From a virus: 21,452 nt of DNA. Below are positions 2,038 to 21,452 of this stretch, piece after piece. Position numbers and translations under genes: made by a program. How positions within the stretch are numbered: position 1 is the stretch's first letter; each line of letters starts with the position of its first letter. The DNA is taken from positions 1-21,452 of IMG/VR virus record IMGVR_UViG_3300033153_012186. One strand, given 5' to 3'. The notes below the pieces were generated by a model. That model made no database searches and was not told the DNA's origin. It saw only the letters and a program-made list of their open reading frames with translations.

Positions 2038-2427
2038 TTATACAAGCGCCCTTAAACGGGCGATAAAATCGACAAAAACATAACCCGACGACAAATGATA
2101 TATCTTGCCCTGGCCGTCGGGGACCAATTGAAACTGCTCAAAAAGGACGTTGTAATAAGTATCGTTTCCGAAGGTATAATCTGCGGCGTCGGCGAAATTG
2201 TAAGATTCGATGGCGGCTATGGCAGCGGCCATGTTGGCGCGTGCGGCGGCATAGCTGGCGCCGGAGGCGCGGAGGCGACCGGTGACGATGATCGCATAGC
2301 CGCCGGAGCCGAGGTGCATCGCGGTCAGGCCATGAGAGCCAACGAAGTGGGCGTATTGCCGGATGGGCAGCCGGGGTTGGGGCGAAACCCTAATCTCAGA
2401 GCCAAATATAGTAGTCAGGTCAGGCAT
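2038..2427 (-). CDS. Putative distal tail/baseplate protein
   Basis: 129-aa soluble protein directly after the tape-measure gene, overlapping its end by 8 nt. It starts with a mixed beta-type N-terminus, has an Ala-rich helix in the middle (AAARANMAAAIAAIESYNF), and ends with an aromatic-rich beta segment (YHLSSGYVFVDFIARL). No family can be named from the sequence. The position right after the tape measure is where distal-tail or tail-tip proteins sit in siphoviruses, so that role is inferred from context only. Confidence 0.6.
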   Translation of the reverse strand: MPDLTTIFGSEIRVSPQPRLPIRQYAHFVGSHGLTAMHLGSGGYAIIVTGRLRASGASYAAARANMAAAIAAIESYNFADAADYTFGNDTYYNVLFEQFQLVPDGQGKIYHLSSGYVFVDFIARLRALV

Positions 2428-6008: not shown

Positions 6009-6640
6009 AGGGTTGTCCTCCTGTATTTTTTAAGCGTTGCCTTGACCAACGGCAACAGGTCGATCTTTTCATTTTTTTGCATCGCGCTGCCGTCGAATGT
6101 GACGGAGGACAGGCCGATGTCGTCTTTGCGCTTATAGACCAGGCACACCTGTTGGATGGCTGCCTCGCGAAGATCGTCGGGCAATTGATGTTCGCCGTCG
6201 CCTGGCGTCACACCGGCGGCGCAGTAACCGCCGCGATAGATGATCTGGACGCTGTCGGGGAATTGACTCCACGCCACATACATACGCATGATAACGCCGT
6301 TGTTGCCATCGTTAAGGATGCGGTAGTCGGTGTTGGCAGTCATAGCGGTGGCGGAGGCGAAGTTGTAACTGTATGACTCTTTGAGCGTAGCAATCGCGAT
6401 CAGCGGGTAACGCCTAACCTGCAAGTAATCACCGACACCGGAGTAGTATTCGGTGACGTCCTGTGCCGGAGCGATCAGCGGGCGGTCACAGTATGTCTCA
6501 AACATTGAGGTCACACCAGAGATGACGTCGCCGATTATGTCGTCGGAGTCCGTATTGACTATGCCGAGCCTGGCCTTGATGTCATCCAGCGTGCAGAGCC
6601 ACGCGGTTGAGCCGGATTGAGGTGTACCCGTGATTGCCAT
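6005..6640 (-). CDS. Head-tail connector protein (HK97 gp6/Phage_connect-like)
   Basis: 211-aa adaptor expected to form a ring under the portal. The N-terminus LDDIKARLGI, the acidic pair before a helix (DSDDIIGDVISGVTSMFETYCDRPL), and the later beta block and LPDDLREAAIQQVCLVYKRK helix are characteristic of gp6-like connectors. Start ATG 6640 overlaps the stop of the upstream gene (TAATG), indicating translational coupling. The next gene overlaps its stop. Confidence 0.8.
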   Translation of the reverse strand: MAITGTPQSGSTAWLCTLDDIKARLGIVNTDSDDIIGDVISGVTSMFETYCDRPLIAPAQDVTEYYSGVGDYLQVRRYPLIAIATLKESYSYNFASATAMTANTDYRILNDGNNGVIMRMYVAWSQFPDSVQIIYRGGYCAAGVTPGDGEHQLPDDLREAAIQQVCLVYKRKDDIGLSSVTFDGSAMQKNEKIDLLPLVKATLKKYRRTTL

Positions 6641-7296
6641 TATTCTACCGTGACCTCCATTGTATCGGGGCCGTAATAGCCCTGTTTACAGTAATAAAGT
6701 GTGTAGGTTGCCGGGTCGAGGTGCATCGAGTTTACCCAGCGGCCATCGACATCAGTGTGAGTCGTCGCCTTGACGAAGGCCGAACCATAATTGCCGGCGT
6801 CATAATCGCTCTTGAGGTACGCGATGATGACGGCGTTATCGATACCGACGCCGCCGGCGGTCTTATAGGCCAGGGCATCGGTGCCGCCGTAATCATGATC
6901 GACGATAACAGAGCCTATGCCGGCCGGGGCGTCGACGAGCTGCACATCGATCGTGGCGGTTAAAACCGCCGGGGCGGCACTACCGTCTTCAATTATTATC
7001 GACACGGCAGTTGCTCCATCCGCGAATACCGCGTCCGGCAGATCAACACGATAATATCCGTGTCCAATCTCGATGGCCTTGTTGTCCGCATGATCATCTG
7101 TCAGGGCGGTTAACGCGGTCAGATCAACTTTGCCGCTTATGGTTACATCCGCATCGTTCTCGACACGAATGTAGTATAAGTCCAGGTCTGTTATGGTAAC
7201 GCCAGTTTCCAAATCTCCAGTAGTGTTGCTGCGCAGCTTTATTGGCAGAGACACATCCATCGACGACTTCTGTATTTGCAATACGCCCTGGTTCAT
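6640..7296 (-). CDS. Ig-like beta-sandwich structural protein
   Basis: 218-aa acidic beta-rich protein, probably virion-associated. The N-terminal half (SLPIKLRSNTTGDLETGVTI, then a strand-rich block ending ATIDVQLVDAP) looks like one Ig-like domain. The C-terminal part (IIAYLKSDYDAGNYGSAFVK through ATYTLYYCKQGYYGPDTMEV) resembles a carboxypeptidase-regulatory/CnaB-type sandwich, in which extracellular proteins carry surface modules. It overlaps its neighbours by ATGA and TAATG junctions. Such domains decorate heads or tails of phages; which structure it binds is not evident. Confidence 0.6.
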   Translation of the reverse strand: MNQGVLQIQKSSMDVSLPIKLRSNTTGDLETGVTITDLDLYYIRVENDADVTISGKVDLTALTALTDDHADNKAIEIGHGYYRVDLPDAVFADGATAVSIIIEDGSAAPAVLTATIDVQLVDAPAGIGSVIVDHDYGGTDALAYKTAGGVGIDNAVIIAYLKSDYDAGNYGSAFVKATTHTDVDGRWVNSMHLDPATYTLYYCKQGYYGPDTMEVTVE

Positions 7297-8774
7297 CTTG
7301 CCCCCATCAAAAGAGATTTACGCTGCCACGCGCCTATACTCACAAAACCGTCATCCGGGGCCGGTCGGCCCGTGTTGAGACATGGGCTGCCAGGACGAAG
7401 CCGAAAATCGCTGCCGGCGGCGTTGATGAATTTTGGATCCACTTTAATCGAGTGAGAACCGATAATCGGCTCCATCCCGCCGGAATAATCGTTTTTGACA
7501 GGATCATCCAACGGGTCACCGTTAACATCAACGATACAGTTGTAATCGTTATAAGCGATAGTTCCACCGTTGGCCCCGACCAATATCCCGTGTCCATCCG
7601 CCTGTATGACCATGATGTTGTTGTAAGCAGTTACGATACCGGCGGCATTCCCCACCCATACCCCCGCTGTAGATTGATTATAGAATACATTATTCTTAAC
7701 AAGAGCAATTCCAGCGGCACGTATACCATAAACTCCACCAATAATTATATTGCCGATAAAGGTTCCGACGACACCGTTTTGTATTCCTACCGTCCCGGAA
7801 GCCGTAGATGAGGGGGTCTGCCATACGCAATCTATTGACGAGCTTCCTGTGGCAAGATTGAGTAAAAGCACGGCACAATCATCTCCATTCGCACAGCCTA
7901 TAAACCGTGCTGCACCGCCGGTAGTAAGGACCTGATAGACACTATCGAACCTGCAGTTTATAACGGTTAATCCCTCCGGAGTGTTTGGCGGATAAATTGC
8001 ATCTTCAGGTGAACTATTCGCTTCTGTATTGTACAGATACAAATTCCGCAGCACCACATTATCCGCACCGTCGATGGTAATGACGGGATACGCACCACCG
8101 TCAGCATCCAGCTTGACAAACCCCGTTGCCGAAATTCCATCGTTGTACGAATCTATCGGGGATTGATAATATGCCCCGCCATAATCCATATCACCTTGCA
8201 GCATCGCCGCATCACTCGGAGGATTGGTGTTGTACCCGATGATGTGCAGCTTTGTATTTTTAGTAACCGACCCAGCGCTTGTAATGCTGACAGTCGCTCC
8301 CGGAGTCTCATCCTTGTTCGTAAGAATAGATACGTCATAATCAGAGGCATCTGTGTTATCAACGGCATGTTGCAGAGTATCGAACGCACCGCCAAGATTG
8401 CAGATAGTTAAAGTGTTGTCATCATCGTTTCCCAAAGCTGTATCGATAGTAACAGTACCCGGCCCAACACTTAGAATTTCGTATCTGCCACTTATAACCT
8501 CAGCTCCTTCCATATACAGCACCATTCCCGGCACAGCATAAAGAAAATCATCTTCTGATGCTTCGGTGATAACTCCGGTAGTTGTGTTGTATGATGCACC
8601 CGGTGAGGTACCTATTGGTGCGCCATTGGCACCCATAAGATAATCAAGGATACCTTGTCCTGCATATGTATCGTAAAAGGCCTTGGTACATCCCCCAGCC
8701 TTACTGTTACCAGCCTTCGTACCTATACCGCCTACGAAGAAAACCGTTTCCTTAGTTGCGAATACCTCAGCCAT
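7293..8774 (-). CDS. Right-handed parallel beta-helix protein
   Basis: 493-aa protein with short repeated strands typical of a right-handed beta-helix: NVVLRNLYLYN, LTVINCRFDSV, ARFIGCANGDD, GTFIGNIIIGGVYGIRAAG, ALVKNNVFYN, IVTAYNNIMV, TIAYNDYNCI. The C-terminal tail DFRLRPGSPCLNTG is the motif that ends many pectate-lyase-like or choice-of-anchor beta-helix proteins. No signal peptide. Such proteins bind or cleave polysaccharide; in phages they are usually tailspikes. Here the gene is embedded in the head/connector block, coupled to both neighbours (TAATG and ATGA), so it could instead be a capsid-attached appendage. The region has lower GC than flanking genes, suggesting separate acquisition. 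Confidence 0.8.
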   Translation of the reverse strand: MAEVFATKETVFFVGGIGTKAGNSKAGGCTKAFYDTYAGQGILDYLMGANGAPIGTSPGASYNTTTGVITEASEDDFLYAVPGMVLYMEGAEVISGRYEILSVGPGTVTIDTALGNDDDNTLTICNLGGAFDTLQHAVDNTDASDYDVSILTNKDETPGATVSITSAGSVTKNTKLHIIGYNTNPPSDAAMLQGDMDYGGAYYQSPIDSYNDGISATGFVKLDADGGAYPVITIDGADNVVLRNLYLYNTEANSSPEDAIYPPNTPEGLTVINCRFDSVYQVLTTGGAARFIGCANGDDCAVLLLNLATGSSSIDCVWQTPSSTASGTVGIQNGVVGTFIGNIIIGGVYGIRAAGIALVKNNVFYNQSTAGVWVGNAAGIVTAYNNIMVIQADGHGILVGANGGTIAYNDYNCIVDVNGDPLDDPVKNDYSGGMEPIIGSHSIKVDPKFINAAGSDFRLRPGSPCLNTGRPAPDDGFVSIGAWQRKSLLMGAR

Positions 8775-9097
8775 TAGTCCACATCCTCCGGCCTGCCTTT
8801 AAGCCATAAAGTAACGCATGGTTTGCCACTCTGCCGGGTTATCTCGGCCTCGATGTCGGGGAAGTTTGCCCGCAGCCAGTCCCACGCCTGTGTCTTTAAC
8901 CGCTGGAGGTTTTCTTCGTCCTCCATACGCTGGGCACGCCGCAGCAGGAGGGCCTTCACCTTTTTGATAAACGTTGCCGACAATTTCGCGTCTGGAAACT
9001 GGTCCCTAATCTGCTGGGCCGTAACTCCGGCAAGCTGCTGATAAGACAAATTAGAATGCCTCTCGATGAGCTGCTTTGTTTTTGATGCCACACTCAT
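8774..9097 (-). CDS. Small helical protein of unknown function
   Basis: 107-aa protein starting at ATG 9097 (AGAGAT upstream). Residues about 14-48 (LSYQQLAGVTAQQIRDQF and following) resemble a helix-turn-helix-like bundle; a basic helix (KALLLRRAQRM) follows, then an acidic C-terminus. Stop overlaps the start of the beta-helix gene. It might be a nucleic-acid-binding or chaperone protein for the downstream gene; neither is supported by a motif. Confidence 0.5.
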   Translation of the reverse strand: MSVASKTKQLIERHSNLSYQQLAGVTAQQIRDQFPDAKLSATFIKKVKALLLRRAQRMEDEENLQRLKTQAWDWLRANFPDIEAEITRQSGKPCVTLWLKGRPEDVD

Positions 9098-9154
9098 TGT
9101 CAATCTCTTTTACGTCACTATTTCGTTTTATAACTGCCGTCCGGGTGAAGCTGC

Positions 9155-9715
9155 TTATTCTTTGGTGTCTGCGTCTGCTTCTGCTTCGACCGGGGTGGCT
9201 TCTTCTGTTTTGGTTTGTCCATCTGCATCATGATCCTCAACTTTCACGTCGGCCTTGCCGGGTTTGAGTTTTTCGATCTGCCCTGCGAGCCCGTCGCGTA
9301 CCCTCTGCGACTCATCGATGTCGATCTGCCGCAGTTCGATATCTATGTTGCACACCTCAATCTGATATTCAGCTTTTCTTTGCAGCAGGGCGAGGAGTTT
9401 GCTCTTCTTTTTGCACTTCGAGAGTTTGTCGACGAACTCCACAAGTTCTGCTTTTTGCTTTAGAAGCAGCTTGCGACCTTCGAAGTCTTTGGCCAGGACA
9501 TTATCCACCACGGCAAGCTGTTCCTGAAGCTGTGTGAGCTTTACCAGTGCCTTGTCTATGCGGGCGTCCTGGGGGGCAGGGACCTTTTTGTATTTGAGTT
9601 TGCCGGCCTTGCGGAGCTTCTTGGCGACGGGACCAGCAACCTGTTGCCTGACGCCCTTGAGAAACGTTCCTTCGGGACCTACATAACTGTTTTGTGGTAT
9701 GATCCACGTCTTCAT
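9155..9715 (-). CDS. Coiled-coil protein with basic N-terminus and acidic tail
   Basis: 186-aa protein from ATG 9715 (GGAG upstream); the frame extends to 9763 but that part overlaps the terminator-like hairpin. The N-terminus has MKTWIIPQNSYVGPEGTFLKG and then a lysine-rich region; residues about 60-160 form long charged helices likely to be coiled coil; the last 30 residues are Asp/Glu/Ala-rich. Gene order (after the capsid and its neighbour) suggests a head-associated or assembly protein, but no family was recognised. Confidence 0.55.
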   Translation of the reverse strand: MKTWIIPQNSYVGPEGTFLKGVRQQVAGPVAKKLRKAGKLKYKKVPAPQDARIDKALVKLTQLQEQLAVVDNVLAKDFEGRKLLLKQKAELVEFVDKLSKCKKKSKLLALLQRKAEYQIEVCNIDIELRQIDIDESQRVRDGLAGQIEKLKPGKADVKVEDHDADGQTKTEEATPVEAEADADTKE

Positions 9716-9761
9716 TTTAATTCTCCATTTCTGTCTTTTGACGCCAAAGTTTCTTTTGGCC

Positions 9762-9795
9762 AAAATACCCGCCCGCCGCGTGACGGGCGGGTATT
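9762..9795 (-). terminator. Terminator-like hairpin inside the late operon
   Basis: A perfect 12-bp stem (AATACCCGCCCG at 9764-9775, CGGGCGGGTATT at 9784-9795, 8-nt loop) is followed on the minus strand by TTTT (9762-9765). It lies between the stop at 9820 and the next start at 9715. Leaky termination here would make head genes more abundant than downstream genes. Confidence 0.6.
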
Positions 9796-10376: not shown

Positions 10377-11786
10377 TTACGATGCGGCGGTAGCCAGGGC
10401 GCAGATCGGACCTGCCTCGGGGGCGTCCGCATCCGCTGCGGTGCCGACGCCGTGGACATTAATGGCCACACGCTGCTTGCCACGGATCGCCAAAAGGCCC
10501 TGGTCGAAGTATCTCTGATCGCTCTCGGCGATCTCGACGCCGCCACGCGTGCCGAGGTAAGAGCCCATCGTCAGATTGCCGAAGATTGCGCATATCGTGC
10601 TGATGGCTGTGGCCTTGGGCATGACCTGGACAAACTCCACAGGGTAGGACAGCCAGTTCTTCTCGCGGACGCCTGCGCCGTTGATTACCTCCATCGCGGT
10701 CGCTCCGGACTGGGCCAGTGCCAGCTTGACCATTATGGTCGCGTAGAAGTAGCGATGTACAAACCACTTGGCACGTCCATCATCAGCGATCTCCGGCAGG
10801 ACGCCGACGACCTTCTCGAAGTCGCCGATAACCAACTCGCCAAACGTATCACCGGAGCCGACGATCCGGCCGTAGATATTGGTCAGGTCCGAGTCAACCG
10901 CATTTAGTGCACCAACGATGCCGGTGTGGCCGAAATAGGTGCTTGTGCCATCTCCGAGGAAGCCGCACATATCCTCCTGCTTGCCAAAGGCCTGCAGTAT
11001 CTGGCCGCCGATCAGCTCGCCTATGGCTATGGCCGAGTCGGCCTCCAGGTCCAGGCCGATTGCCGTAAGGGTCAGCCATGTCTTGGAAAGGAGGTTAAGG
11101 ACGGCGATCGTCGGGGCACTCTGCGTGATCGTTCCACCCTCACCGGGGCAATACACGGTCAGGCCGCTCGACAGCTTCGGAACCATCGACGAGGACGAGC
11201 CCATCGGATAGACGGTCGTATTCGCACGGAACTTGCTGTAACGCTCCTGGATGGCGATCAGGTTGGGGATTGTCTCGATAGACACCAGGGCACTTCCTCC
11301 GGTCATGGATGAGCCGGTCATGGCCTTGACATCCTTGGTGTCGAAGTTGATGGACTTGCCATCTTCGTTGAGCCAGTTAACATCGATGCCCATGTCATCT
11401 AATATCTTGAGGGCCTTGGTAGCCTTGCCGGCTGCACGTCCGGCGCCTGCCAGGACAAACAGGCCGAAAATCTTGGCATCGTGCGGCGAACGGAAGATGC
11501 CATTCCATCCACCATCTTGGTCCTTAAGTGCCTCGTAATCGTTGCGGCCAAGCCGCTTGAGTTGCTTGGTCATGTTGGCAGCAAGCTCTTTGACCTCTTC
11601 CATGGTCGCGGCAACTTCCTGCTGCCTCTCCTGGAGCTGGGCAACGGCTGCCTTATCGGTCTCGATCCTTTCATCGATCAGGTCGAGAACCTCCTGTTTC
11701 GACGCCTTGTTATTCTTGATGTCCTCGAGACCCTTTTCAATCTTGTCACAGGTCTCTTGTAATTTTTTTTCTACTGGTTCTGGCAT
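10377..11786 (-). CDS. HK97-type major capsid protein with N-terminal scaffold domain
   Basis: 469-aa protein forming the capsid shell. Residues 1-82 are a highly charged coiled coil (VEKKLQETCDKIEKGLEDIK and following), equivalent to the delta/scaffold domain that the protease removes. After a linker, GSALVSIETIPNLIAIQERYSKFR, VPKLSSGLTVYCPGEGGTI and KTWLTLTAIGLDLEADSAIA match the N-arm, E-loop and spine-helix order of HK97 capsids, and GFLGDGTSTYFGHTGI is the conserved G-rich loop seen in the family. Start ATG 11786 with GGAGG; two nt from the protease stop. Expected partner: the protease at 11789. Confidence 0.92.
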   Translation of the reverse strand: MPEPVEKKLQETCDKIEKGLEDIKNNKASKQEVLDLIDERIETDKAAVAQLQERQQEVAATMEEVKELAANMTKQLKRLGRNDYEALKDQDGGWNGIFRSPHDAKIFGLFVLAGAGRAAGKATKALKILDDMGIDVNWLNEDGKSINFDTKDVKAMTGSSMTGGSALVSIETIPNLIAIQERYSKFRANTTVYPMGSSSSMVPKLSSGLTVYCPGEGGTITQSAPTIAVLNLLSKTWLTLTAIGLDLEADSAIAIGELIGGQILQAFGKQEDMCGFLGDGTSTYFGHTGIVGALNAVDSDLTNIYGRIVGSGDTFGELVIGDFEKVVGVLPEIADDGRAKWFVHRYFYATIMVKLALAQSGATAMEVINGAGVREKNWLSYPVEFVQVMPKATAISTICAIFGNLTMGSYLGTRGGVEIAESDQRYFDQGLLAIRGKQRVAINVHGVGTAADADAPEAGPICALATAAS

Positions 11787-11788
11787 AA

Positions 11789-12568
11789 TCAGCCTCCATA
11801 AGAATTGATTAGTGTTTGCAGTTTATCCAACAGTTGTCCGGGCTTTTCCATATCGCCGGCGGATGGTTCGGAGGGGCTGCCGGACAGCTCGCCAAACTCC
11901 GCCAATTCGCCGGAATCGATAATCAACATGTCTTTCACCTCATCAATGCTTGCCTCGATACGGGAGGCGAAATTGTCGAGGGAAGTTTTTATCTCAGTTA
12001 CGAGTGAGTCCTTCGAGGACTTGAGGCCATCCTGCTCCGGTTGTTGCTGGAGCCAGGCGAAGTCTTTGATCTTCGAGAGGGCCTGTCGGTTGGAGCCGAC
12101 GGGAACGCAGGATATTTCATAAAGCTCTATCTTGGTGATCACAAAGAGCCGTCGCTCCTTGACAACCTCTTCGTGGCCCTCCAGCGTGCGGAATCCGATA
12201 GAGACCGCTCGCATATGCTTATCGCGATAGAGCTGCCAGTACTCCTCACCGAGGGCTGTCTTGGCAAAGACCAGATCCATCTCCGAATGATGCTTAAGCG
12301 CGCGAAACGAGTCGGTATCCCACGAGCCGATGACCGGGGACGATCCATTGCTGAGCCTGTGCTGGTGACAGGCCAGAGCGGTTGGATTTTTTGCAAAATC
12401 CTTCATGGCCTCCACTACCGCCGAGACCTCTACCCGCTCGTCGTCACGGTCAACCTTGTCGGATGAAATAATAAAACGCACTGACCGTCGCTCTTCATTG
12501 ATCGCATCTTTCACGTCGGCGACAAACGCCAGAAAATGCTTCATAGTTTCTGTTTCAAAATTAGGCAT
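11789..12568 (-). CDS. HK97-family prohead protease
   Basis: 259-aa serine protease that cleaves the capsid scaffold during head maturation. From ATG 12568 (AGGAG upstream), RFIISSDKVDRDDERV (31-46) is the family's N-terminal strand, LACHQHRL contains the likely catalytic His (68 or 70), HMRAVSIGFR the likely catalytic Ser123, and ELYEISCVPVGSNRQA (148-163) is the strongly conserved substrate-strand motif. The C-terminal 90 residues are acidic and helical and may act as an assembly tether. Sits between portal and capsid, the normal HK97 order. Confidence 0.92.
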   Translation of the reverse strand: MPNFETETMKHFLAFVADVKDAINEERRSVRFIISSDKVDRDDERVEVSAVVEAMKDFAKNPTALACHQHRLSNGSSPVIGSWDTDSFRALKHHSEMDLVFAKTALGEEYWQLYRDKHMRAVSIGFRTLEGHEEVVKERRLFVITKIELYEISCVPVGSNRQALSKIKDFAWLQQQPEQDGLKSSKDSLVTEIKTSLDNFASRIEASIDEVKDMLIIDSGELAEFGELSGSPSEPSAGDMEKPGQLLDKLQTLINSYGG

Positions 12569-12578
12569 AATTGCACTC

Positions 12579-14879
12579 CTATGCGACAAAAGATTTCATT
12601 TCGTAATAGCTAAAAAACTTGACCGTGTCGTAATAATCCAGGTCAAGGGATTTGCCCGCCACGTACCGGGCGATGGCCATACAGCGGCAGTTGGCAATAT
12701 TGGCAGCGGAACCTGCCGGATCGCCTGGATACATAAGCCTCTCACCGCCGACGGTAAACGGCTGGTCTATCGGGATGCCGGCGGCGGAGTCGGCCTCGGC
12801 CTGCCTGTGCGTATCCCGAACGTTGCTGTCCCGGCTTGTCAGCCATGACCTGGTTTCGACGCCGCTGGACTTCATGCCTTCATGACGCCCCGTCGATACA
12901 GCGCCGGACGTCTGCGTGCGGGCGATCCCCCTCGCCCGGTTATGCTTGATGCCCAGCGCGTCGGTCAGACGCCCGGTCAGGTCCTTGAGCCCTTCTCCCT
13001 TTTCAAGACCTGTCTTCAACTGCCGGGCGACTCGGTCCTGCGTCGTCTTGTTGATCTTGGTGATCTTGTGCGAGCTGACGGTAATCGCCCGCCTGACGGC
13101 CGGGCTGAGCTTTGCCTGGCGGACTGCGGCTTCGAGGTCATCGCCGGTAAGTCCGGCGATCTCGATGATCGACTGGCGGATGCCAAGCTCGGCGCCCCTC
13201 TCGCAAAATGTTTTGTTGATGACCTTGATTTTTCCACTCTCAACTTTCATGTCAAAGACCACACGGGCGATTATATCGTTGGCGCTTTTTGCGCCTTTTT
13301 GCTCCAGGGCCTTCGCGAGCTTGTCGGTGAGGATACGTCGTTGCCGCTGCAGGTATGAGCGGACGGCGGCGGTGTATTCTTTTTCCAGGCCCACCCACGA
13401 GACAGTCCACTTGCGCCAGATTCGCAACTTTTGCTGCTCGGTGTCTTTTTTAACAACAGAAGGCTCGGCCTGTTTAACGTACTTGCCTTCGTCTTCATCT
13501 TCATCGCTTTCACCTTCCGGCAGCGATGGGCCGAGAACCGCGTCGATGCCGCCTTCAAGGGCGAACTTCGCGGGGACCAGTCCCATAGATACCCACCAGT
13601 CGTCGCCCCACGGCACATGCTCAAACGGCAGGTCGAATGCGTCGATGCACTGATTAAGAGGCACACCTCTTTCGGTGTACTTCAGCACTTTTTCCGCACG
13701 CTCGCGGACCATTTCCTGCATCGTCGGATGATCCTCGATCGCGAACCAGGCGAACAGGTTTTGCCCGGACTGCAACGATTTTATTTTTGCCGCCCGATAC
13801 GACGACTTACGTGTTAGAGATCGCTGGGACGAACAATAGCTTCGGGATTGGGCAGGGGTGACGGCCTTGTACCCCCGGCTGCGGTGTCTGAAGCGGCTCA
13901 GGATGCCGTCGGTGACATGCTCTGCGATAAATGACAGGGTAGGAGCGATGGTGTTGGCGATAAACCGCTGCTGGGCCGGACCGTGCGAGTACTGGGCCTC
14001 GGAGTTGAGGCCGACGATCTCCGGCGGCACACCCATAAGGGCACATATCTCGGCGGCATCGAATTTACGCAGCTCGATCATCTCCATCTCAGCCATAGTC
14101 TGGGCCAGCCTTTTAAGGTCGGCACCGCCGGTCATCAGGCATGTCTTGCCAGCATTATGGGCGCCTTTGTGACGCGACTCGAACTGGCTGATTAACATGC
14201 GCCTTTCGTCGTCGCCCAGCGAGCCGGGGACGGTTATCAGATTGCCGATCTTGCCGCCGTTGGCCAGGGCAGCCTCGTTGAGCAACGATGCCTGATATGA
14301 ACTGGAGATCGCGATCTTGCCGGCGGTCGTCGGGCCGATGCCGCGATAGGCATCGTACGGATTATAATCGACGAGCGGGTGCACATCTTCCAGGAACAGA
14401 GGGATGCGGTCTCCGCCGGGCAACCGGAGCATGTAGCCAACGAGTTCGCCGCGACGGATGACGGGTTTTAGCTGGTCCTTGCCGACGACGAGGATGGACG
14501 TCGGACGGACTATGTCGATGTCGGCAAATACCCAATACACCTCCCGGTCCAGGGCCAGGTAGCCGGCTGTCTCGCTAATGAAAGTTGTAAAAGACATCTT
14601 CGGGTTGCGGAACAACAGATCATACGCCTCGCCCGATTCGACGATCTTATCGGCCTCAGTCGAGATCATCATCTGAACGGAGCGACACGCCTTGATCACC
14701 TCGTTAACGCAAATATAAAGCCAGCTTGTCTGGGCGTACGGCAGGGGCGGTCGATTGGGCGTTGCTCCGTCGAGGTCCAATCCACGGTCCCAGGGCTGGG
14801 CAAGAGCACTTAGACTAATCTGGCCGTCCTTGGCGGTCTGGTCTGCCTGGTCTTTTGTTTTAGCGTCATCCATAGTCAT
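12579..14879 (-). CDS. Portal protein fused to Mu gpF-like head morphogenesis domain
   Basis: 766 aa, far longer than a typical portal (400-500 aa). Residues about 45-430 are an HK97-type portal: TSWLYICVNEVIKACRSV, GYLALDREVYWVFADID, the AISSSYQASLLNEAALANGG stem region, and LRKFDAAEICALMGVPPEIV with a downstream conserved Asn-containing loop. After an acidic linker (ESDEDEDEGK), the C-terminal part (about 560-740) is a Mu gpF/SPP1 gp7-type domain: RTQTSGAVSTGRHEG, SRDSNVRDTHR, YPGDPAGSAANIANCRC. In most phages these are separate neighbouring genes. The reading frame is continuous with no stop, so the fusion is genuine in this sequence. Start overlaps the terminase stop (ATGA) and has no strong ribosome site, so translation is probably coupled. 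Confidence 0.9.
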   Translation of the reverse strand: MTMDDAKTKDQADQTAKDGQISLSALAQPWDRGLDLDGATPNRPPLPYAQTSWLYICVNEVIKACRSVQMMISTEADKIVESGEAYDLLFRNPKMSFTTFISETAGYLALDREVYWVFADIDIVRPTSILVVGKDQLKPVIRRGELVGYMLRLPGGDRIPLFLEDVHPLVDYNPYDAYRGIGPTTAGKIAISSSYQASLLNEAALANGGKIGNLITVPGSLGDDERRMLISQFESRHKGAHNAGKTCLMTGGADLKRLAQTMAEMEMIELRKFDAAEICALMGVPPEIVGLNSEAQYSHGPAQQRFIANTIAPTLSFIAEHVTDGILSRFRHRSRGYKAVTPAQSRSYCSSQRSLTRKSSYRAAKIKSLQSGQNLFAWFAIEDHPTMQEMVRERAEKVLKYTERGVPLNQCIDAFDLPFEHVPWGDDWWVSMGLVPAKFALEGGIDAVLGPSLPEGESDEDEDEGKYVKQAEPSVVKKDTEQQKLRIWRKWTVSWVGLEKEYTAAVRSYLQRQRRILTDKLAKALEQKGAKSANDIIARVVFDMKVESGKIKVINKTFCERGAELGIRQSIIEIAGLTGDDLEAAVRQAKLSPAVRRAITVSSHKITKINKTTQDRVARQLKTGLEKGEGLKDLTGRLTDALGIKHNRARGIARTQTSGAVSTGRHEGMKSSGVETRSWLTSRDSNVRDTHRQAEADSAAGIPIDQPFTVGGERLMYPGDPAGSAANIANCRCMAIARYVAGKSLDLDYYDTVKFFSYYEMKSFVA

Positions 14880-16216
14880 AACCAGAGTATTTCCGGCTTA
14901 ACAGGGTTATGGGCGGCTTCACAGACCAGGGCGAATGCCCAAAAGTCGTCAGCGTGCCCTTCCTTTGTAACCGCCGCGTCGTAACGGACATTGCCAGCGG
15001 CGGTGATTGTCTTCTTGATCGCGTGGAAACTCTCGCGCACGGCCATGTCATCCGGCAGGCGGCAACGGCGGTCCTCCATTCGGCTCACCACCAGGGATGC
15101 CAGGTGCTCTTTGATGGGGCCGGTGAACTTGACCTTCTCGATACGATTGGTTCCGACCTTTTTTTGAAGTGATTCCACAAGCATGTCGCCGATACCCGAC
15201 GCGTCGCCGCAACCACGGACAACCTTCGGGTCACTCATTACATCAGTCAGGACCTTTAACTGTGTGTCATACGGACAGGCCTTAAGTGCGATGCGTTTGC
15301 GAATGACTAAGATGTCACCGACCATCTCGGCCTTCCAGATACTCGTCAGGTGTTTCTCGCGGCCAACGTCAAAGCCGACATACTTCGGACCATTGCCTTC
15401 GGTCTCCATACAAAGCGGGTCTTCGCATGCCTGATACAGGTCGTAGGGGATCAGTGTCGATGCCGCCGAGGATGGGATACACATATACTCACGGTTAAAC
15501 GCATCCTGATTGCGGGCCTTGGCTCGGCACTCGGCCAGCAGCCTTTCGCGGGCGTCGGGATCGATGTGGTCCAGTTTGTAAATCTTCTCGGCCAGGCCCT
15601 GGTCGATGGCGACGGTGATCGGCGTGAAGTGATAACTCCACGCCAATGTCCGGGCCTGGGCCCAGGTCAGCTCACCGGCCTCAACACGTTTGACCAGGCT
15701 GACAAGCTTGTCGAACTCGGAACCCTCGGCGTTGCGGGTGGTAAGTATGCTCAGGTCGTAGCCCCACGTGGTAACGGGCGTGGCGGCATCGAGCATCTCG
15801 CCGGGCTTATCATGCCAGTCGAACTCGTCAAGGCATACATCGCCGCCCTTGGACCGAAACCGCCTCGGATTAGATGTCATACAATTAATGCGGCTGCCGC
15901 TGTGCGGGAACCGGGTCACGTAGTTGGTGTATTTTTTGCCCTCGTCATCTACAAGCTGCTCGGAGAAGTGGTCGGCGATGGCATCGACCATCTTGCACCA
16001 TTGCTGGCAGTACAGGCTGAACTCCACAGCCGACGACTCGTCCGCCGAGGAAAACCAGTAGTCCCGTTTTTCACTGCTCAGGTTGCGTCGGCGGACGGCA
16101 CGGTAGCTCTCGGCGTAGGTTGCTCCAATCCGCCGACTCTTGTCCCAGAGCTTGAACCGTCTATCATCCCTGATCCAGTCAACCTGGTACGGCAGGAAGT
16201 AGCCGGTCGGCAACAA
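14876..16216 (-). CDS. Terminase large subunit (Mu gp28-like)
   Basis: 446-aa motor ATPase/nuclease that packages DNA through the portal. FLPYQVDWIRD (7-17) is the typical opening; WDKSRRIGATYAES (24-37) is the gp28-type Walker A replacement lacking a classic GKS; VCLDEFDW (127-134) is Walker B; YVGFDVGREKHLTSIW (279-294) with Asp283, GDASGIG (337-343) with Asp338 and HADDFWAFAL (421-430) are the RNase H-like nuclease metal sites. Start is uncertain: TTG at 16216 (or the next TTG at 16213) with no good ribosome site, and the frame is open further upstream inside the small-subunit gene. Immediately follows the small subunit, as in Mu. Confidence 0.92.
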   Translation of the reverse strand: MLPTGYFLPYQVDWIRDDRRFKLWDKSRRIGATYAESYRAVRRRNLSSEKRDYWFSSADESSAVEFSLYCQQWCKMVDAIADHFSEQLVDDEGKKYTNYVTRFPHSGSRINCMTSNPRRFRSKGGDVCLDEFDWHDKPGEMLDAATPVTTWGYDLSILTTRNAEGSEFDKLVSLVKRVEAGELTWAQARTLAWSYHFTPITVAIDQGLAEKIYKLDHIDPDARERLLAECRAKARNQDAFNREYMCIPSSAASTLIPYDLYQACEDPLCMETEGNGPKYVGFDVGREKHLTSIWKAEMVGDILVIRKRIALKACPYDTQLKVLTDVMSDPKVVRGCGDASGIGDMLVESLQKKVGTNRIEKVKFTGPIKEHLASLVVSRMEDRRCRLPDDMAVRESFHAIKKTITAAGNVRYDAAVTKEGHADDFWAFALVCEAAHNPVKPEILWL

Positions 16217-16230
16217 GTTATCTGTTTTTG

Positions 16231-16797
16231 CTACGATTTTACAATCCCCAACTGTTCGTCGATGATCTCCTGGATCAGTTTCCGGTCAACACCGGCATCG
16301 GTCAGCCTGGCCTTTGTGTTCTTTGCCGCAGCTTCCGCTTTGGCCTTGATCTGAGTGCGGATGTACTTGTCCGCGTTGATGGCGATGGCGGTGCAGTCAC
16401 GCATGGCGGCGGCGACCATCGTCAGGTCCTTGGGCTTTGGATTCTCCATGTCAGACATCAGTTCGATGGCAAGGGCTGTAATCATCTCGGCGGCGGCCTT
16501 CTGAGTAGCAGATGCCTTCTCATCAGTCAGGTCGGCCATGACATCACGGGTGATCACACCGGCCTGCTTCATGCGAGCGAGCGTCCGCATCCGTCCACCA
16601 TAACGGCCGACGGCGGAGCGAGAGATTCTATGGCCCCCACGACGCAGGTAGTCAACGACATCGTCATAAGTCGGATGCCCGTCTGTTTTGCCGACAAAAT
16701 CGTATGGCCATTCATTGTCAATAAGCATGCGCCTGATCGTTGCCAGGACATCGTCAGGCAGTTGATCGATACTCGAATGTGTGCGTCGTTTGCTCAT
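16231..16797 (-). CDS. Terminase small subunit (Mu gp27-like, DUF3486)
   Basis: 188-aa DNA-recognition subunit. SSIDQLPDDVLATIRRMLID near the N-terminus, YDDVVDYLRRGGHRISRSAVGRYGGRMR (about 44-71, a helix-turn-helix whose ISRSAVGRY helix is diagnostic for DUF3486) and a long helical C-terminus match the family. It should bind the packaging start site and recruit the gp28-like motor encoded next. Start ATG 16797 has no Shine-Dalgarno; instead the phased TTAA repeats run right up to it (16800-16847), which may mean that the protein binds and regulates its own gene. Confidence 0.87.
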   Translation of the reverse strand: MSKRRTHSSIDQLPDDVLATIRRMLIDNEWPYDFVGKTDGHPTYDDVVDYLRRGGHRISRSAVGRYGGRMRTLARMKQAGVITRDVMADLTDEKASATQKAAAEMITALAIELMSDMENPKPKDLTMVAAAMRDCTAIAINADKYIRTQIKAKAEAAAKNTKARLTDAGVDRKLIQEIIDEQLGIVKS

Positions 16798-17550: not shown

Positions 17551-18264
17551 TTATGCCGCTTTTGGCGCCTTGATGGCTCTTACCATATTACGCGTACTGA
17601 TCGACTGGGCTTTGCCGAGCGTCTCGCGGAAAACGGCTTTCTCCTGGTCGGTGTAGTTGTCGATAAGGACGTCAACGGATTTGATTACATCGACGAGGGT
17701 GTTCATTGTCTGGACGGTGTTTTTCTTTTCGACCCGCTTGCCGCCGATGACACCGACAATGCCGCTGATAGTGGTCAGGATAAGTCCGCCGATCCAGACG
17801 TACATGTTCCACGGGGGCGGCAGTGCGTCACTGATAGCCATCGCCCCGCTGCCATACGCCGCCGCCTCCTCGGCCAGGCCAACATCACCGGTCAGCGTCG
17901 CATCAAGCTGCCCCTGCCAGGCGCCGACCGCCGCATCCACCCTGGTCTTGTCTTCCATGACCCTGGTCAGTTCCTCATTGGCCTTAGCGACCGAGGCGGC
18001 GATCCGGGCCTGCAGATCACTGGTTACGTTTGGATCGGAAAGCAACTGCTCGGCCCGGGTGAGCTGAGCCTGGATCTGCTCAGCCTTGGTGTCCAGCTTA
18101 GCCGACAGCTCGCTTGCCTGACTGATCCATGTATTGAGCGTGGCCAGACGCTGCTGCGAATTCTCACAACCGCCAACCAGAATAACAAACAAAATGAGGA
18201 GACAAGCCGCGAGGGTGCCCAGTGTGATGCCTGCGGTGTTTTTGCGATGTTCGTTCGTTCTCAT
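17551..18264 (-). CDS. Lipoprotein-like membrane protein in the lysis-gene position
   Basis: 237-aa protein, first gene of the late operon. Residues 11-33 form a hydrophobic signal ending in LVGGC, a lipobox with Cys33 as the lipidation site; a long helical segment (about 38-115, coiled-coil-like) follows; WNMYVWIGGLILTTISGIVGVIGG (152-175) is a second membrane helix; the C-terminal 60 residues are basic and soluble. Mu-like phages carry holin, lysozyme and spanin genes here. A lipid-anchored, coiled-coil, membrane-spanning protein could be spanin-like, but the two membrane anchors do not match known spanins. SD is GGGAGG; it shares a 13-nt ATGACAGGGAGGT leader with 19520-19532. Confidence 0.7.
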   Translation of the reverse strand: MRTNEHRKNTAGITLGTLAACLLILFVILVGGCENSQQRLATLNTWISQASELSAKLDTKAEQIQAQLTRAEQLLSDPNVTSDLQARIAASVAKANEELTRVMEDKTRVDAAVGAWQGQLDATLTGDVGLAEEAAAYGSGAMAISDALPPPWNMYVWIGGLILTTISGIVGVIGGKRVEKKNTVQTMNTLVDVIKSVDVLIDNYTDQEKAVFRETLGKAQSISTRNMVRAIKAPKAA

Positions 18265-18350
18265 AATGACCTCCCTGTCATAATTTTGGCCGCGTCATGC
18301 GGCATTCCAAAACTGGCCCCGGCGACGGTCGCCAGGACAGGAGGCGGGAG
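18265..18350 (-). other. 5' leader of the lipoprotein gene with hairpin
   Basis: Minus-strand leader. TTTTG (18284-18288) pairs with CAAAA (18308-18312), with inner GCCGC (18289-18293) pairing GCGGC (18299-18303). Directly 3' in the transcript is ATGACAGGGAGGT (18269-18281), holding the Shine-Dalgarno. No protein-coding signal. Confidence 0.45.
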
Positions 18351-18492: not shown

Positions 18493-18532
18493 GAAGAATT
18501 TTAATTTTTTTTATGGGGGGCATGATATTTTT

Positions 18533-18565
18533 AAAAAAAACCAGCGACCATCTCCCGATCGCTGG
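18533..18565 (-). terminator. Rho-independent terminator of the PEP-CTERM gene
   Basis: CCAGCGA (18541-18547) pairs perfectly with TCGCTGG (18559-18565). Read on the minus strand the stem is followed at once by eight Ts (18533-18540). It lies about 87 nt past the PEP-CTERM stop and separates that gene from the late promoters. A weaker second copy of the stem (CCAGC/GCTGG) lies at 18579-18602. Confidence 0.8.
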
Positions 18566-18652
18566 CGTGTATAACAGACCAGCAACCCTACAGGATCGCT
18601 GGGGCTTATATGTTTATTGCAGGGAAACCATTAAAAATCCAGACCTAACACC

Positions 18653-19387
18653 TTATATCATAGCATATTTCCTCCTGCGAAGCAACAATCCGCCAAGACC
18701 AAGCAGACAAAGACTCGCTGGCTCAGGGACAGGTTCAAGGACAATACTTGAGGTGCCGCTGAGGACAAACTCATTATTTAACAGGTCTCCATTGGCCAGT
18801 GTGCCGGTCAGAATGCCAGAATTAGTATGCCCCTCCTCGTTGGCACAGAATTCATCGTAACCAACAGGGTACCCATCAATAGCAAAATCGCTGCCGACAA
18901 AAGTTATTGTTACATCGTCGCCTGAAAACAACAGGCGTCCTACGTATATTTTTTCAGCTATAATACCACCAGAAATAGTTATCTGACTATTTTCATAAGC
19001 CATCAAATCTTTATCTATAGTCCCTCCGAAAATATTTACCTGACTAATATCATAAGCAGTTAAATGCCCTCCTATCGTTCCACTGGAAATACTTATCTGA
19101 CTAAGGCTCCAAGCAGACAAATCACCGTCTATCGAACCGCCGGAAATATTTATTCGGCTATCCTCATAAGCTTTTAAGTCACCACTTATCGACCCATCGG
19201 TTAAGAGATTGACAGTAGTAAACTTGTCAAAAAACTGGTTATTTATTACGCTAACCGGTTCTTCAATGGCCCAGTTGATATCGTGGACCAGGCCGTCACT
19301 GATGAGCAGGGCATAGCTGGTTGTCGGGTTCAGGGCTGCGATCACGAAAAACCCTGCCATTGCAATCGTTAGTGTTGTTTTTCTCAT
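18653..19387 (-). CDS. PEP-CTERM sorted, repeat-containing exported protein (phage moron)
   Basis: 244-aa exported protein. N-terminal signal peptide residues 1-27 (RKTTLTIAMAGFFVIAAL core). The body holds four 19-residue repeats with the core pattern DL.AY..SQI.ISGG.I, probably a short beta-solenoid. The C-terminus VPEPASLCLLGLGG followed by LLLRRRK is a textbook PEP-CTERM signal: PEP motif, hydrophobic helix and basic tail, which is recognised by host exosortase. Start ATG 19387 is preceded by GGGGGAAG; an upstream ATG at 19411 would bury that ribosome site. AT-richer than the phage genes around it and followed by its own terminator, as expected of a moron acquired from a host. It probably modifies the lysogen's surface. 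Confidence 0.9.
   Translation of the reverse strand: MRKTTLTIAMAGFFVIAALNPTTSYALLISDGLVHDINWAIEEPVSVINNQFFDKFTTVNLLTDGSISGDLKAYEDSRINISGGSIDGDLSAWSLSQISISSGTIGGHLTAYDISQVNIFGGTIDKDLMAYENSQITISGGIIAEKIYVGRLLFSGDDVTITFVGSDFAIDGYPVGYDEFCANEEGHTNSGILTGTLANGDLLNNEFVLSGTSSIVLEPVPEPASLCLLGLGGLLLRRRKYAMI
18957..19190 (-). repeat. 57-bp coding repeat in the PEP-CTERM gene
   Basis: Equivalent positions recur at 18970, 19027, 19084 and 19141, exactly 57 bp apart, each with GAAATA followed by TTATCTGACT-like sequence and CATAAGC. They encode the four 19-residue repeats. Because units diverge, this is old duplication kept in frame rather than a recent array. Confidence 0.8.
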
Positions 19388-19420
19388 TTTTCTTCCCCCA
19401 AAAATTTTCAAGTTTTTTTA

Positions 19421-19543
19421 TTGCGTGAATTATTCCCCGCCGTATAATTACTGCCAGTTGCCAGGCTCGACACAAACGAAGGCATGGGGGCCGGAGACCG
19501 GGCCAAGGCAACTGGCTTCATGACAGGGAGGTTTATCGTGTCA
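19421..19543 (+). promoter_or_regulatory. Plus-strand promoter and structured leader
   Basis: A perfect -10 TATAAT (19443-19448) has a weak -35 TTGCGT 16 bp upstream. The transcript would begin just before a perfect 10-bp inverted repeat, GCCAGTTGCC (19453-19462) with GGCAACTGGC (19507-19516), enclosing an inner CCGG-AGA-CCGG hairpin (19491-19501). After the closing stem come ATGACAGGGAGGT (19520-19532, Shine-Dalgarno) and GTG (19538). TGACA (19521-19525) can pair with TGTCA (19539-19543) and trap the ribosome site. Riboswitch-like in layout; no known class matched. Confidence 0.5.
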
Positions 19544-19717
19544 AACCCCATTAAATTCACCACAGTGCCAATCTATGATTACGAATGCCAAACTCTTACT
19601 TTTTCCGAGAAGCTTTGGCTGCGGTTTTTCTTGCTTTCTCAAAGAGATCGCGACGCTCTTGAAGGGAAAGCTGTGCCAGTAGCTTCAACGTCTCGGCGTC
19701 CAAAAGAGCTTTTGTGA
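19538..19717 (+). CDS. Possible small protein read from the structured leader, antisense to the regulator gene
   Basis: 59 codons from GTG 19538, seven nt after an AGGGAGG ribosome site (an in-frame ATG at 19520 also exists). The product begins VSNPIKFTTVPIYDYECQ and has no recognised family. More than half of it overlaps, on the opposite strand, the 3' end of the ribbon-helix-helix gene, which looks the more convincing coding sequence. It may be a real small protein, or the transcript may act only as antisense RNA. Confidence 0.3.
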   Translation: MSNPIKFTTVPIYDYECQTLTFSEKLWLRFFLLSQRDRDALEGKAVPVASTSRRPKELL

Positions 19718-19916
19718 GGTATTCATACATATCTTTGGGTGGGGAAGAAAGCACCTTAGCCTGTATCTCGATAGGAAGGGAAAGCCATACGCGCAATGCC
19801 CCCGTTACAGCATCATTTTGAACCTGTTTACGGCTACCTACTTGGCGTTTTAGGTCTGATTTGACATCAGAATCCACCTCAGCCTGTAAGTTTTTCGCAT
19901 TTTTTCTGTAAGCCAT
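19596..19916 (-). CDS. Ribbon-helix-helix-type DNA-binding regulator (predicted)
   Basis: 106-aa basic protein. Residues 9-46 fit the RHH/Arc-CopG pattern: a short strand (NLQAEVD), helix (VKSDLKRQV), turn (GSR) and second helix (VQNDAVTGALRVWLSL). The C-terminal half is helical (LTKALLDAETLKLLAQLS) with a Lys/Ala tail. No Shine-Dalgarno precedes ATG 19916; the upstream sequence is AT-rich with two dyads (19952-19987), and the gene is divergent to the one at 20046. A self-regulating repressor of the switch region is likely but inferred. Confidence 0.65.
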   Translation of the reverse strand: MAYRKNAKNLQAEVDSDVKSDLKRQVGSRKQVQNDAVTGALRVWLSLPIEIQAKVLSSPPKDMYEYLTKALLDAETLKLLAQLSLQERRDLFEKARKTAAKASRKK

Positions 19917-20024: not shown

Positions 20025-20045
20025 TTGATTCAGAAGGGAGCTATT

Positions 20046-20288
20046 ATGGCAAACCGAACAGTGCAACGAAAAGGCGGATGGCATGGTGGGCCGGTGAAGA
20101 ACATAAAGCTAAGCTGGGCCCAGAAGGTGGACCGGCCAACACTGGTCATGCTTAACGCAATCACGCCATACCTGTACCGCGACAACCCACACCAGACTGC
20201 GCGTATGCTGCTGCGGCAAAAGTGCGAGGAGGTGGTGCGCGAGCTCGGTATCGATCTGTCAAACACTCAGTCGGCGATGGCCGGCTGA
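20046..20288 (+). CDS. Small basic protein, possibly DNA-binding
   Basis: 80-aa protein with strong ribosome site AAGGGAG and start ATG 20046. Basic N-terminus (NRTVQRKGGWHGG), then VKNIKLSWAQKVDRPTLVML and two helices (LNAITPYL, HQTARMLLRQKCEEVVRELG). The strand-helix-turn-helix pattern could be ribbon-helix-helix-like. Placed divergently from the regulator at 19596 and followed by a strong terminator, so it forms a single-gene unit. Probably part of the early regulatory block (Ner- or Cro-like role), but no family is recognised. Confidence 0.6.
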   Translation: MANRTVQRKGGWHGGPVKNIKLSWAQKVDRPTLVMLNAITPYLYRDNPHQTARMLLRQKCEEVVRELGIDLSNTQSAMAG

Positions 20289-20295
20289 TTAGCCA

Positions 20296-20325
20296 GCCGG
20301 CGGCCATAGCGGGCCGCCGGCTTTT
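20296..20325 (+). terminator. Rho-independent terminator after the small gene
   Basis: GCCGGCGGCC (20296-20305) pairs perfectly with GGCCGCCGGC (20312-20321), 6-nt loop, followed by TTTT (20322-20325). It starts 8 nt after the stop codon at 20288. Confidence 0.85.
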
Positions 20326-20364
20326 AACTGACAAACTGAATTATCAAAGAGCAGGGTAAATGAT

Positions 20365-20820
20365 ATGACCAGGGCGGCGGCAAGAAAAGATAAATCGGCA
20401 GCAATGTTTATCATGGTCGTGATAGGCATCACGATGTTTACAAGCTGCTACCCCGCGCTGGCCCTGCCGAAACCAAATATCGCATCGGTTGTTCTCCTTT
20501 CAAAAAGTCCGGACGGGCGCTTATCCGTGGGCGTCCGTCCGGCACAGCCTCCTCGTTGGAGGCGCCCCCTTACCGGCGGGCGGCTGTGGCTTCTTCAGTT
20601 GCCCGTTGACAGCAATCCTGTCATCCGACAGGCTGACAATAATAACTCTCCCCGGAAAAGGATCTGCGCGGAGTGCACGCCGCGCAGGTCCGTCATTTTT
20701 AGCGGGGGTGACGAGCGAAAATCGTTTTCTTTTTCTTCGCCGCCGGCCCGGGCGGAACAGGGAGCTAATTCCAAACCGTCCGGGCGGCATAGTGTTGAAC
20801 AGCCCGAGGGATCGGGCTGA
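20365..20820 (+). CDS. Doubtful exported protein, or short leader peptide, in the hairpin region
   Basis: Start ATG 20365 lies 9 nt after AGGG, and the first 34 residues look like a signal sequence (AAMFIMVVIGITMFTSCYPA, ending ALA). Beyond residue about 50 the frame is Arg/Pro-rich, overlaps several strong hairpins and shows no protein-like pattern; frames on both strands are open here because of high GC. A genuine short exported peptide at the 5' end is possible; a 151-aa protein is doubtful. Confidence 0.3.
   Translation: MTRAAARKDKSAAMFIMVVIGITMFTSCYPALALPKPNIASVVLLSKSPDGRLSVGVRPAQPPRWRRPLTGGRLWLLQLPVDSNPVIRQADNNNSPRKRICAECTPRRSVIFSGGDERKSFSFSSPPARAEQGANSKPSGRHSVEQPEGSG
20505..20542 (-). 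terminator. Minus-strand terminator-like hairpin
   Basis: CCGGACGGGCGC (20509-20520) pairs with GCGTCCGTCCGG (20531-20542), 12 bp with one G-T. On the minus strand it is followed by ACTTTTTG. This implies a minus-strand transcript ending here, although no convincing gene was found for it. Confidence 0.55.
20547..20819. other. Cluster of strong hairpins without a clear gene
   Basis: In order: GCCTCC/GGAGGC (20547-20563); CCTGTC/GACAGG (20617-20632); a 12-bp stem around GTGCAC (20660-20691), followed on the plus strand by GTCATTTTT and hence possibly a terminator; a 13-bp stem with one bulge (20742-20788); and CAGCCCGA/TCGGGCTG with a GGGA loop (20800-20819). Density is far above that of the rest of the window. 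Confidence 0.6.
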
Positions 20821-20834
20821 GTAACCATAGCTGT

Positions 20835-20918
20835 GGACCGTTCGGCCGGTCCGTGAGCAAAGCCTTGCCGGCTACCAGGCGGAGGGAGCCGCCGGTGCCA
20901 ACGCCGGCCCGGCCGAAC
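20835..20918 (+). ncRNA. Candidate structured RNA/leader before the CII-like gene
   Basis: GTTCGGCCGG (20840-20849) pairs perfectly with CCGGCCGAAC (20909-20918). Inside, GCCGGC (20867-20872) pairs with GCCGGC (20903-20908), and within that ACC(A)GGCGG pairs with CCGCCGGT around an AGGGAG loop. A competing stem, GGACCG/CGGTCC (20835-20852), would break the outer helix. It sits 37 nt upstream of the CII-like start, so it may control that gene. No known RNA family was recognised. Confidence 0.45.
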
Positions 20919-20955
20919 ATTGTTGTGTCAGGTAACATGGATGGAGACGTAAGGT

Positions 20956-21452
20956 ATGGATGCCCGGACGATGGATTACGAGGGTGTGGATATGAGCGAC
21001 GACCATATATTGCTTAGCCAGGTACTGACCGATCACGAGGTGACGGTTAAGCGGCTGGTGACTCTGACGGGGCTGGGACAGGCGACAATCTATCGGTACC
21101 TGGCCGGGGGCGTGCGGATACCGACGGTGATCTGGCGGACGGTGTATAAGCTGACAAGAGATGCGAGGATTACCGAACTGTTTGTCGGCGATGTGCCAAT
21201 GATGCTTGTGCCGATCAATCCGGCGCCGGCAAGCGGCGTAGAGATGGCGGACCTGATAGCCGCCCGCAAAACACAGATCGAGTACGAGGAGGGCGTGCTT
21301 AATATCCTGACCGACGGCAAGATCGATAAGCTTGACCGGCGGGCGGTGGAGCGACTTAAAAAAACATTCCCGGCAATGGTAAGCAGCCTGGCGGGGAACT
21401 ACCAGGCAATAACGGGACAGTACGAGTTAAAAAAAAAAAAAAAAGATGGGAG
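20956..21452 (+). CDS. CII-like phage regulatory protein, 3' end outside the window
   Basis: 165 residues visible with no stop before the edge. The start ATG 20956 follows GGAG by 9 nt; later in-frame ATGs (20971, 20992) have weaker sites. Residues 27-50 (HEVTVKRLVTLTGLGQATIY and on) form a helix-turn-helix. The remainder (VIWRTVYKLTRDARITELFV; EEGVLNILTDGKIDKLDRRA) resembles the CII/CP76 family of phage regulators, which is about 160 aa. It probably controls early or lysogeny genes farther right. The last coding bases are a run of 16 As (21429-21444) encoding Lys repeats, a likely slippage or assembly-sensitive site. Confidence 0.7.
   Translation, partial: MDARTMDYEGVDMSDDHILLSQVLTDHEVTVKRLVTLTGLGQATIYRYLAGGVRIPTVIWRTVYKLTRDARITELFVGDVPMMLVPINPAPASGVEMADLIAARKTQIEYEEGVLNILTDGKIDKLDRRAVERLKKTFPAMVSSLAGNYQAITGQYELKKKKKDG

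Follow-up and report, generated by a model that had tools for sequence, protein, structure and literature searches.

Why would a tailed phage carry a gene for a protein that ends in a PEP-CTERM tail? PEP-CTERM proteins and the exosortase (EpsH) constitute a sorting system of Gram-negative bacteria, described in a paper that does not mention phages (Haft et al. 2006, PMC1569441). The system is widespread and poorly understood, and it is tied to exopolysaccharide, flocs, and biofilm. The question is raised by one gene in a 21,452-base virus record (IMGVR_UViG_3300033153_012186), which was analyzed in its entirety and is referred to here as the window. A sequence-only reading had interpreted this gene as a moron whose product uses the sorting machinery of the host, and as a whole that interpretation is partly supported. 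The explanation that we favor, and regard as fairly likely, is that the gene (below, the cargo gene) is a moron encoding an exosortase-sorted surface protein of a temperate Mu/B3-like phage of Planctomycetota.

The cargo gene is an intact ORF at 18653-19387 on the minus strand and encodes 244 amino acids, comprising a signal peptide, about four to five 19-residue repeats, a conserved C-terminal part, and the PEP-CTERM tail (VPEPASLCLLGLGGLLLRRRK). Translation likely starts at the ATG at 19387, judging from the strong Shine-Dalgarno sequence (GGGGGAAG) ahead of it, while the TTG at 19411 is disfavored; the span 18533-19411 first given for the gene thus takes in the terminator and the leader in addition to the coding sequence. 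A six-frame search matched the tail to the PEP-CTERM profile PF07589 (28.9 bits, E 4.7e-8), and the protein itself scores 24.5 bits, above the Pfam curated cut-off of 20.7. The PEP motif, the hydrophobic stretch, and the basic end are all present. Hydropathy gives two peaks, one at residues 6-19, which we read as the signal peptide (a call made from hydropathy and not from SignalP) and which is followed by a cleavage-like TSYA site, and one at residues 224-236, corresponding to the hydrophobic stretch of the tail; between the two, hydropathy indicates no transmembrane segment. Four repeats of 57 nt (19 amino acids) lie in register at 18958-19160, and the C-terminal part ahead of the tail reads TFVGSDFAIDG...LTGTLANGD. 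Signal peptide, repeats, and complete tail are hence as first described. The proposed beta-solenoid fold of the repeats is plausible but unproved: a single-sequence AlphaFold model shows strands that recur, at pLDDT values near 80-90 for residues 60-120, but its mean pLDDT is 54.5 and a PDB search with this weak model returned no significant match. A PHROGs search gave no family for the protein. Assignment to the flocculation-associated PepA family (NF033554) was rejected, the score being 32.8 bits against a cut-off of 80, over residues 125-247 only.

The gene also has the appearance of an independent unit. It ends in a strong intrinsic terminator of its own at 18540-18566 on the minus strand, in which GCCAGCGATCGGGAGATGGTCGCTGGT forms 11 pairs and is followed by TTTTTTT. 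Its DNA is AT-richer than that of the phage, with a GC content around the gene of 0.42-0.43 vs 0.55-0.59 in most structural genes, and a GC3 of 0.41 vs 0.71-0.72 in g17551 (see below), the large terminase subunit (TerL), and the capsid gene. Both features had been noted from the letters and are borne out. No convincing promoter was found: the candidate upstream of the gene is a weak sigma70-like site (CTGGCA-17-AATAAT, 19429-19457, minus strand) that matches at 9 of 12 positions, in a region with seven sigma70-like sites where 3.8 +/- 1.7 are expected by chance. A 13-mer, ATGACAGGGAGGT, precedes the late block at 18269-18281 (minus strand) and recurs inverted at 19520-19532, between the cargo gene and the next gene to its right. 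A 33-nt repeat on either side of the cargo gene (D2; 18494-18526 and 19401-19433, 73% match) was dismissed as AT-rich and probably due to chance.

What kind of phage carries this gene? The window has a Mu gp27-type small terminase subunit (TerS), a MuF domain, and a B3-like TerL that is 34-36% identical to those of Pseudomonas phage B3 and the Sinorhizobium phages Aussie and StopSmel. On the minus strand, the two terminase subunits occupy 14876-16797 (assigned by profile matches and TerL comparison), a portal-MuF fusion, prohead protease, and HK97-type capsid 10377-14879, and a short minor tail or tape measure protein 2420-3973. To the left of the cargo gene, the first gene of the late block is g17551 (17551-18264, minus strand), a lipoprotein/spanin-like gene with weak matches to Rz-like spanins and homologues at the same place in three relatives (L009, L010, and L014). 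To its right, on the same strand, lies a small basic gene, g19596 (19596-19916), with homologues upstream of a variable slot in L010 and L077 and positional equivalents in further relatives. It is followed on the plus strand by a small divergent gene, g20025 (20025-20288; homologues at the same place in L014, L076, and L077), and by a CII/Cro-like helix-turn-helix regulator, g20956 (20956-21450; homologues in L004, L008, L077, L078, and L092), which reaches the end of the record. The cargo gene had been placed between the late promoter region and the regulator; the two small genes separate it from the latter. The record stops inside the regulator, after which relatives have a Zn-finger gene and then the MuA transposase: L008 has a MuA-type transposase two genes past the regulator (PF02914, PF09299, and PF09039), and MuA-like ORFs are found in L003, L004, L010, L015, and L077. 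Because of the B3-like TerL, the gp27-type TerS, and the MuA gene beyond the regulator in relatives, the gene content identifies the window phage as a Mu/B3-like transposable tailed phage, shown in part by the record, that would be temperate.

Other parts of the window also differ from relatives. An insert at 6640-9763, between g9820 and g6005, is phage-specific, measures about 3.2 kb compared with about 0.7-1.7 kb in relatives, and has a lower GC content of 0.47-0.50; it encodes a 493-amino acid protein (7293-8774) that resembles a parallel beta-helix and is unmatched in relatives. Relatives have a lysozyme/transglycosylase-like gene in the interval that separates the small divergent gene from the regulator. 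No homologue of it was found in this interval of the window (20289-20955), which holds only a GC-rich, hairpin-bearing stretch, and the endolysin of the window phage is therefore missing or elsewhere. The tail end of the record carries a Dam-type N6-adenine methyltransferase gene (PF02086, 597-1526). Rfam and tRNA searches of the window gave no match.

Since the cargo family is chromosomal in Planctomycetota, one may ask whether the gene is a plain chromosomal gene beside a prophage, or whether the record is an assembly chimera. TerL relatives were taken from 16 virus contigs and 17 genome contigs, and the neighbors of the cargo gene on both sides have syntenic homologues in related phages. 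In particular, the order g19596, g20025, g20956 continues to the right as in L010, L014, L076, L077, and L008, with MuA beyond. This synteny places the cargo gene within the phage and not in a host flank. It contradicts a prophage that ends left of 18.5 kb, upholds carriage by a tailed phage, and led us to reject host flank and chimera alike as having practically no chance of being correct.

The position itself is informative. The slot that separates the lipoprotein gene from the small basic gene varies among relatives: it holds a Zn-ribbon plus transmembrane protein in L002, L006, L076, L077, and L085, a Zn-ribbon ORF in L014, a signal-peptide coiled-coil protein in L004/L008 and L010, and small transmembrane proteins in L003/L015 and L005. 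In the relatives examined the slot product is hydrophobic or secreted, and the neighboring small gene lacks a transmembrane segment. The slot appears to accommodate cargo destined for the envelope, of which the PEP-CTERM protein would be the version of the window phage. The commonest occupant in relatives is the small Zn-ribbon plus transmembrane family (MKTQCPxC...; L002:7176-7550, L006:476-1360, L076:2622-3446, L077:7107-7478, L085:7378-7833, and L014 at about 6880-7240), whose members are possibly exclusion proteins. Small membrane proteins of this kind, many with a Zn-ribbon, are what superinfection exclusion would call for, and the cargo protein might likewise serve only in exclusion or receptor masking, with the PEP tail as an inner-membrane anchor and no release by exosortase. 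We consider this improbable. The tail is a full PEP-CTERM signal, including the basic end by which exosortase substrates are defined, whereas a plain transmembrane anchor needs no PEP motif, and other phages keep the motif on unrelated protein bodies (see below).

Is a sorting machine available to such a phage? The closest genome relatives of the window phage (TerL 63-65% identical) are found in metagenome-assembled genomes of Sedimentisphaerales and other Planctomycetota, and the related prophages belong to Planctomycetota (Sedimentisphaerales/Phycisphaerae). Judging from relatives at this level of TerL identity, the host is probably a member of Planctomycetota. All 11 Planctomycetota genomes that contain a related terminase encode exosortase (PF09721), and so do 153 of 161 Sedimentisphaerales genomes; the expectation of a host exosortase is thus supported at the level of the clade. 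No exosortase was found in any of 45 phage records (the window and 44 others). Sorting by the host is therefore the sole visible route. The host clade has many PEP-CTERM genes, and 7 of the 11 genomes encode homologues of the cargo protein. These chromosomal homologues are planctomycete PEP-CTERM proteins; within the same order, they show 37-43% identity along most of the cargo protein. Their neighbors are ordinary genes, e.g., one for an MFS transporter or one that is glycoside-hydrolase-like.

Is the window phage alone in carrying such a gene? At the slot locus, the family is known from one record (n=1). The search for PEP-CTERM signals at the same locus, proposed as a check, gave none among the 16 virus TerL relatives; a single-protein scan found no viral relatives of the cargo; and a strict motif for the solenoid family gave four viral matches, all false, and hence no further viral copy. 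In the INPHARED phages, neither the cargo protein nor any of three further PEP proteins from phages had a match, and a 45-kb prophage record discussed below (L049) had no close DNA match there.

When IMG/VR was scanned with a degenerate nucleotide pattern of the PEP-CTERM tail, 58 stretches matched, 53 of which have an ORF of at least 70 amino acids ending in the PEP motif. The PF07589 cut-off was passed by 38 of 40 contigs rescanned. Phage hallmark genes were present on 25 of the 39 PEP contigs tested (TerL on 21, an HK97 capsid gene without TerL on four), and part of the 58 stretches may be host flanks. For L040, L043, and L049, the IMG/VR record numbers look like those of isolate genomes and not metagenomes. 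In the L057 group, the PEP gene lies directly upstream of TerL. A second planctomycete-type phage lineage, with TerL proteins 42-58% identical, also has PEP-CTERM genes near TerL (terminase neighborhoods L053:260-4001, L142:2120-6134, L044:4740-8368, and L020:4644-5819; in L020 the PEP gene and TerL are on opposite strands, and this record was used for body comparison only). The bodies in this lineage are beta-propeller-like (L053), FGE-sulfatase (L142 and L020), or composed of HAF-type repeats identified by eye (L044), and the three types have essentially the tail alone in common. Pairwise dN/dS values of phage-borne PEP genes are 0.09 (L057/L061), 0.13 (L037/L038), 0.08 (L023/L067), and 0.17 (L023/L026); these other genes, mostly for proteobacterial-type PEP proteins, are under purifying selection. 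A PEP-CTERM family of about 210 amino acids occurs in virus contigs L057, L061, L023, L025, L030, L046, L051, L052, and L056, mostly at 45-58% identity between contigs with some pairs closer, and near TerL in L057; it probably represents phages of Alphaproteobacteria, their putative hosts. Two PEP-CTERM genes per record were seen in L074 (1898-2473 and 4125-4832) and also in L021, L027, L034, L039, L059, L066, and L071.

In L049, the PEP gene sits between tail-like ORFs and the holin and endolysin genes, and L074, a related record, carries a second PEP-CTERM gene close to the lysis genes. Together with the spanin-like gene that the cargo gene adjoins in the window, this arrangement could indicate a protein that aids lysis or joins the particle. 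Such a role strikes us as very unlikely: relatives that share the lysis and head genes lack the cargo gene, its homologues are chromosomal surface-type proteins, and in other phages the PEP genes are beside the terminase and not the lysis genes.

The main rival is a neutral passenger, i.e., a host PEP-CTERM gene that a transposable phage captured recently and for which it has no function. The absence from 16 of 16 terminase relatives, the lack of another viral copy by the strict motif, an AT-richness unlike the phage structural genes, and a host clade rich in PEP-CTERM genes are all as this rival predicts. However, the ORF is intact and retains a Shine-Dalgarno sequence and a terminator, the closest sampled chromosomal homologue is only about 40% identical and so does not point to copying in the very recent past, the slot holds envelope proteins in relatives, and PEP-CTERM cargo recurs in other phages, where it is under purifying selection. 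We judge the passenger unlikely, although less so than the other rivals; it stays the foremost of them because the gene is a single copy, so that selection on it is not measurable.

Phage genes on both sides, absence at the locus in close relatives, and a clear terminator of its own are what a moron would be expected to show. In the explanation that we favor, the accessory slot would house a host-derived gene for a PEP-CTERM surface protein, kept as a self-contained unit. In the lysogen or the infected cell, the Sec pathway of the host would export the product by means of its signal peptide, the tail would retain it in the inner membrane and hand it to the host exosortase, and cleavage would let it pass to the surface of the cell or to its exopolysaccharide layer. 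Export, exosortase handling, and surface delivery are modeled on the PEP-CTERM pathway (PMC1569441), and expression, processing, and surface location of the cargo are put forward by this analogy. PEP-CTERM proteins have an experimentally established role in cell aggregation, as with PepA in floc formation by Aquincola (PMC9850573). The repeat domain would then alter the envelope, most likely in adhesion, aggregation, or the access of competing phages to the surface; which of these benefits the phage, adhesion and aggregation or the blocking of competitors, is our guess.

Unrelated viruses encode tagged proteins too, and therefore some viruses may remodel the host surface through the sorting machine of the host. 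As a general strategy, phages of exosortase-positive bacteria would repeatedly have gained PEP-CTERM cargo, keeping the tail and changing the body, and host exosortase would display it, altering aggregation, exopolysaccharide binding, or adsorption. We advance this wider proposal tentatively, as somewhat less probable than not. Exosortase substrates that are encoded by phages and kept by purifying selection would demonstrate phage exploitation of the system. They would also be a natural set in which unrelated bodies share one type of tail, and would connect prophages with the surface properties and aggregation of environmental bacteria, e.g., Planctomycetota.

How does the locus compare with known systems? 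Like the PEP-CTERM proteins of bacteria (PMC1569441), the cargo protein has a signal peptide, no internal transmembrane segment, a PEP motif, a hydrophobic stretch, and a basic end; it is homologous to chromosomal planctomycete members, and the host clade has exosortase. Unlike them, it is encoded by a phage, in a record without exosortase. The phage resembles the B3-like Mu-type siphophages (B3, Aussie, and StopSmel) in its TerL, gp27-type TerS, and MuF, and in the MuA gene beside the regulator in relatives, but it belongs to a distinct planctomycete-associated group and its PEP protein is unmatched in INPHARED.

Phage morons, or lysogenic-conversion genes, include bor and lom of phage lambda. 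The cargo gene is like them: it is a lone gene of unusual composition that ends in its own terminator, it lies between blocks of phage genes and is not present in close relatives, and its product is predicted to be envelope-bound. It differs in that its sorting would depend on the exosortase pathway, which to our knowledge no described moron uses. In the parts of the open-licence literature that were covered, we found no description of phage-borne PEP-CTERM proteins as a strategy, consistent with the earlier view that it is not an established one; priority is not certain. A precedent is a gene-transfer survey of virus contigs from Yellowstone (PMC11003980), which notes 13 viral proteins of the TIGR03118 type, reported as horizontally acquired, whose C-terminal domain is a putative exosortase-interaction domain. 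Like the cargo protein, they are encoded on virus contigs and have a C-terminal end that would engage exosortase. They belong to another family and, in the sections consulted, are listed in passing without location in a phage genome or mechanism.
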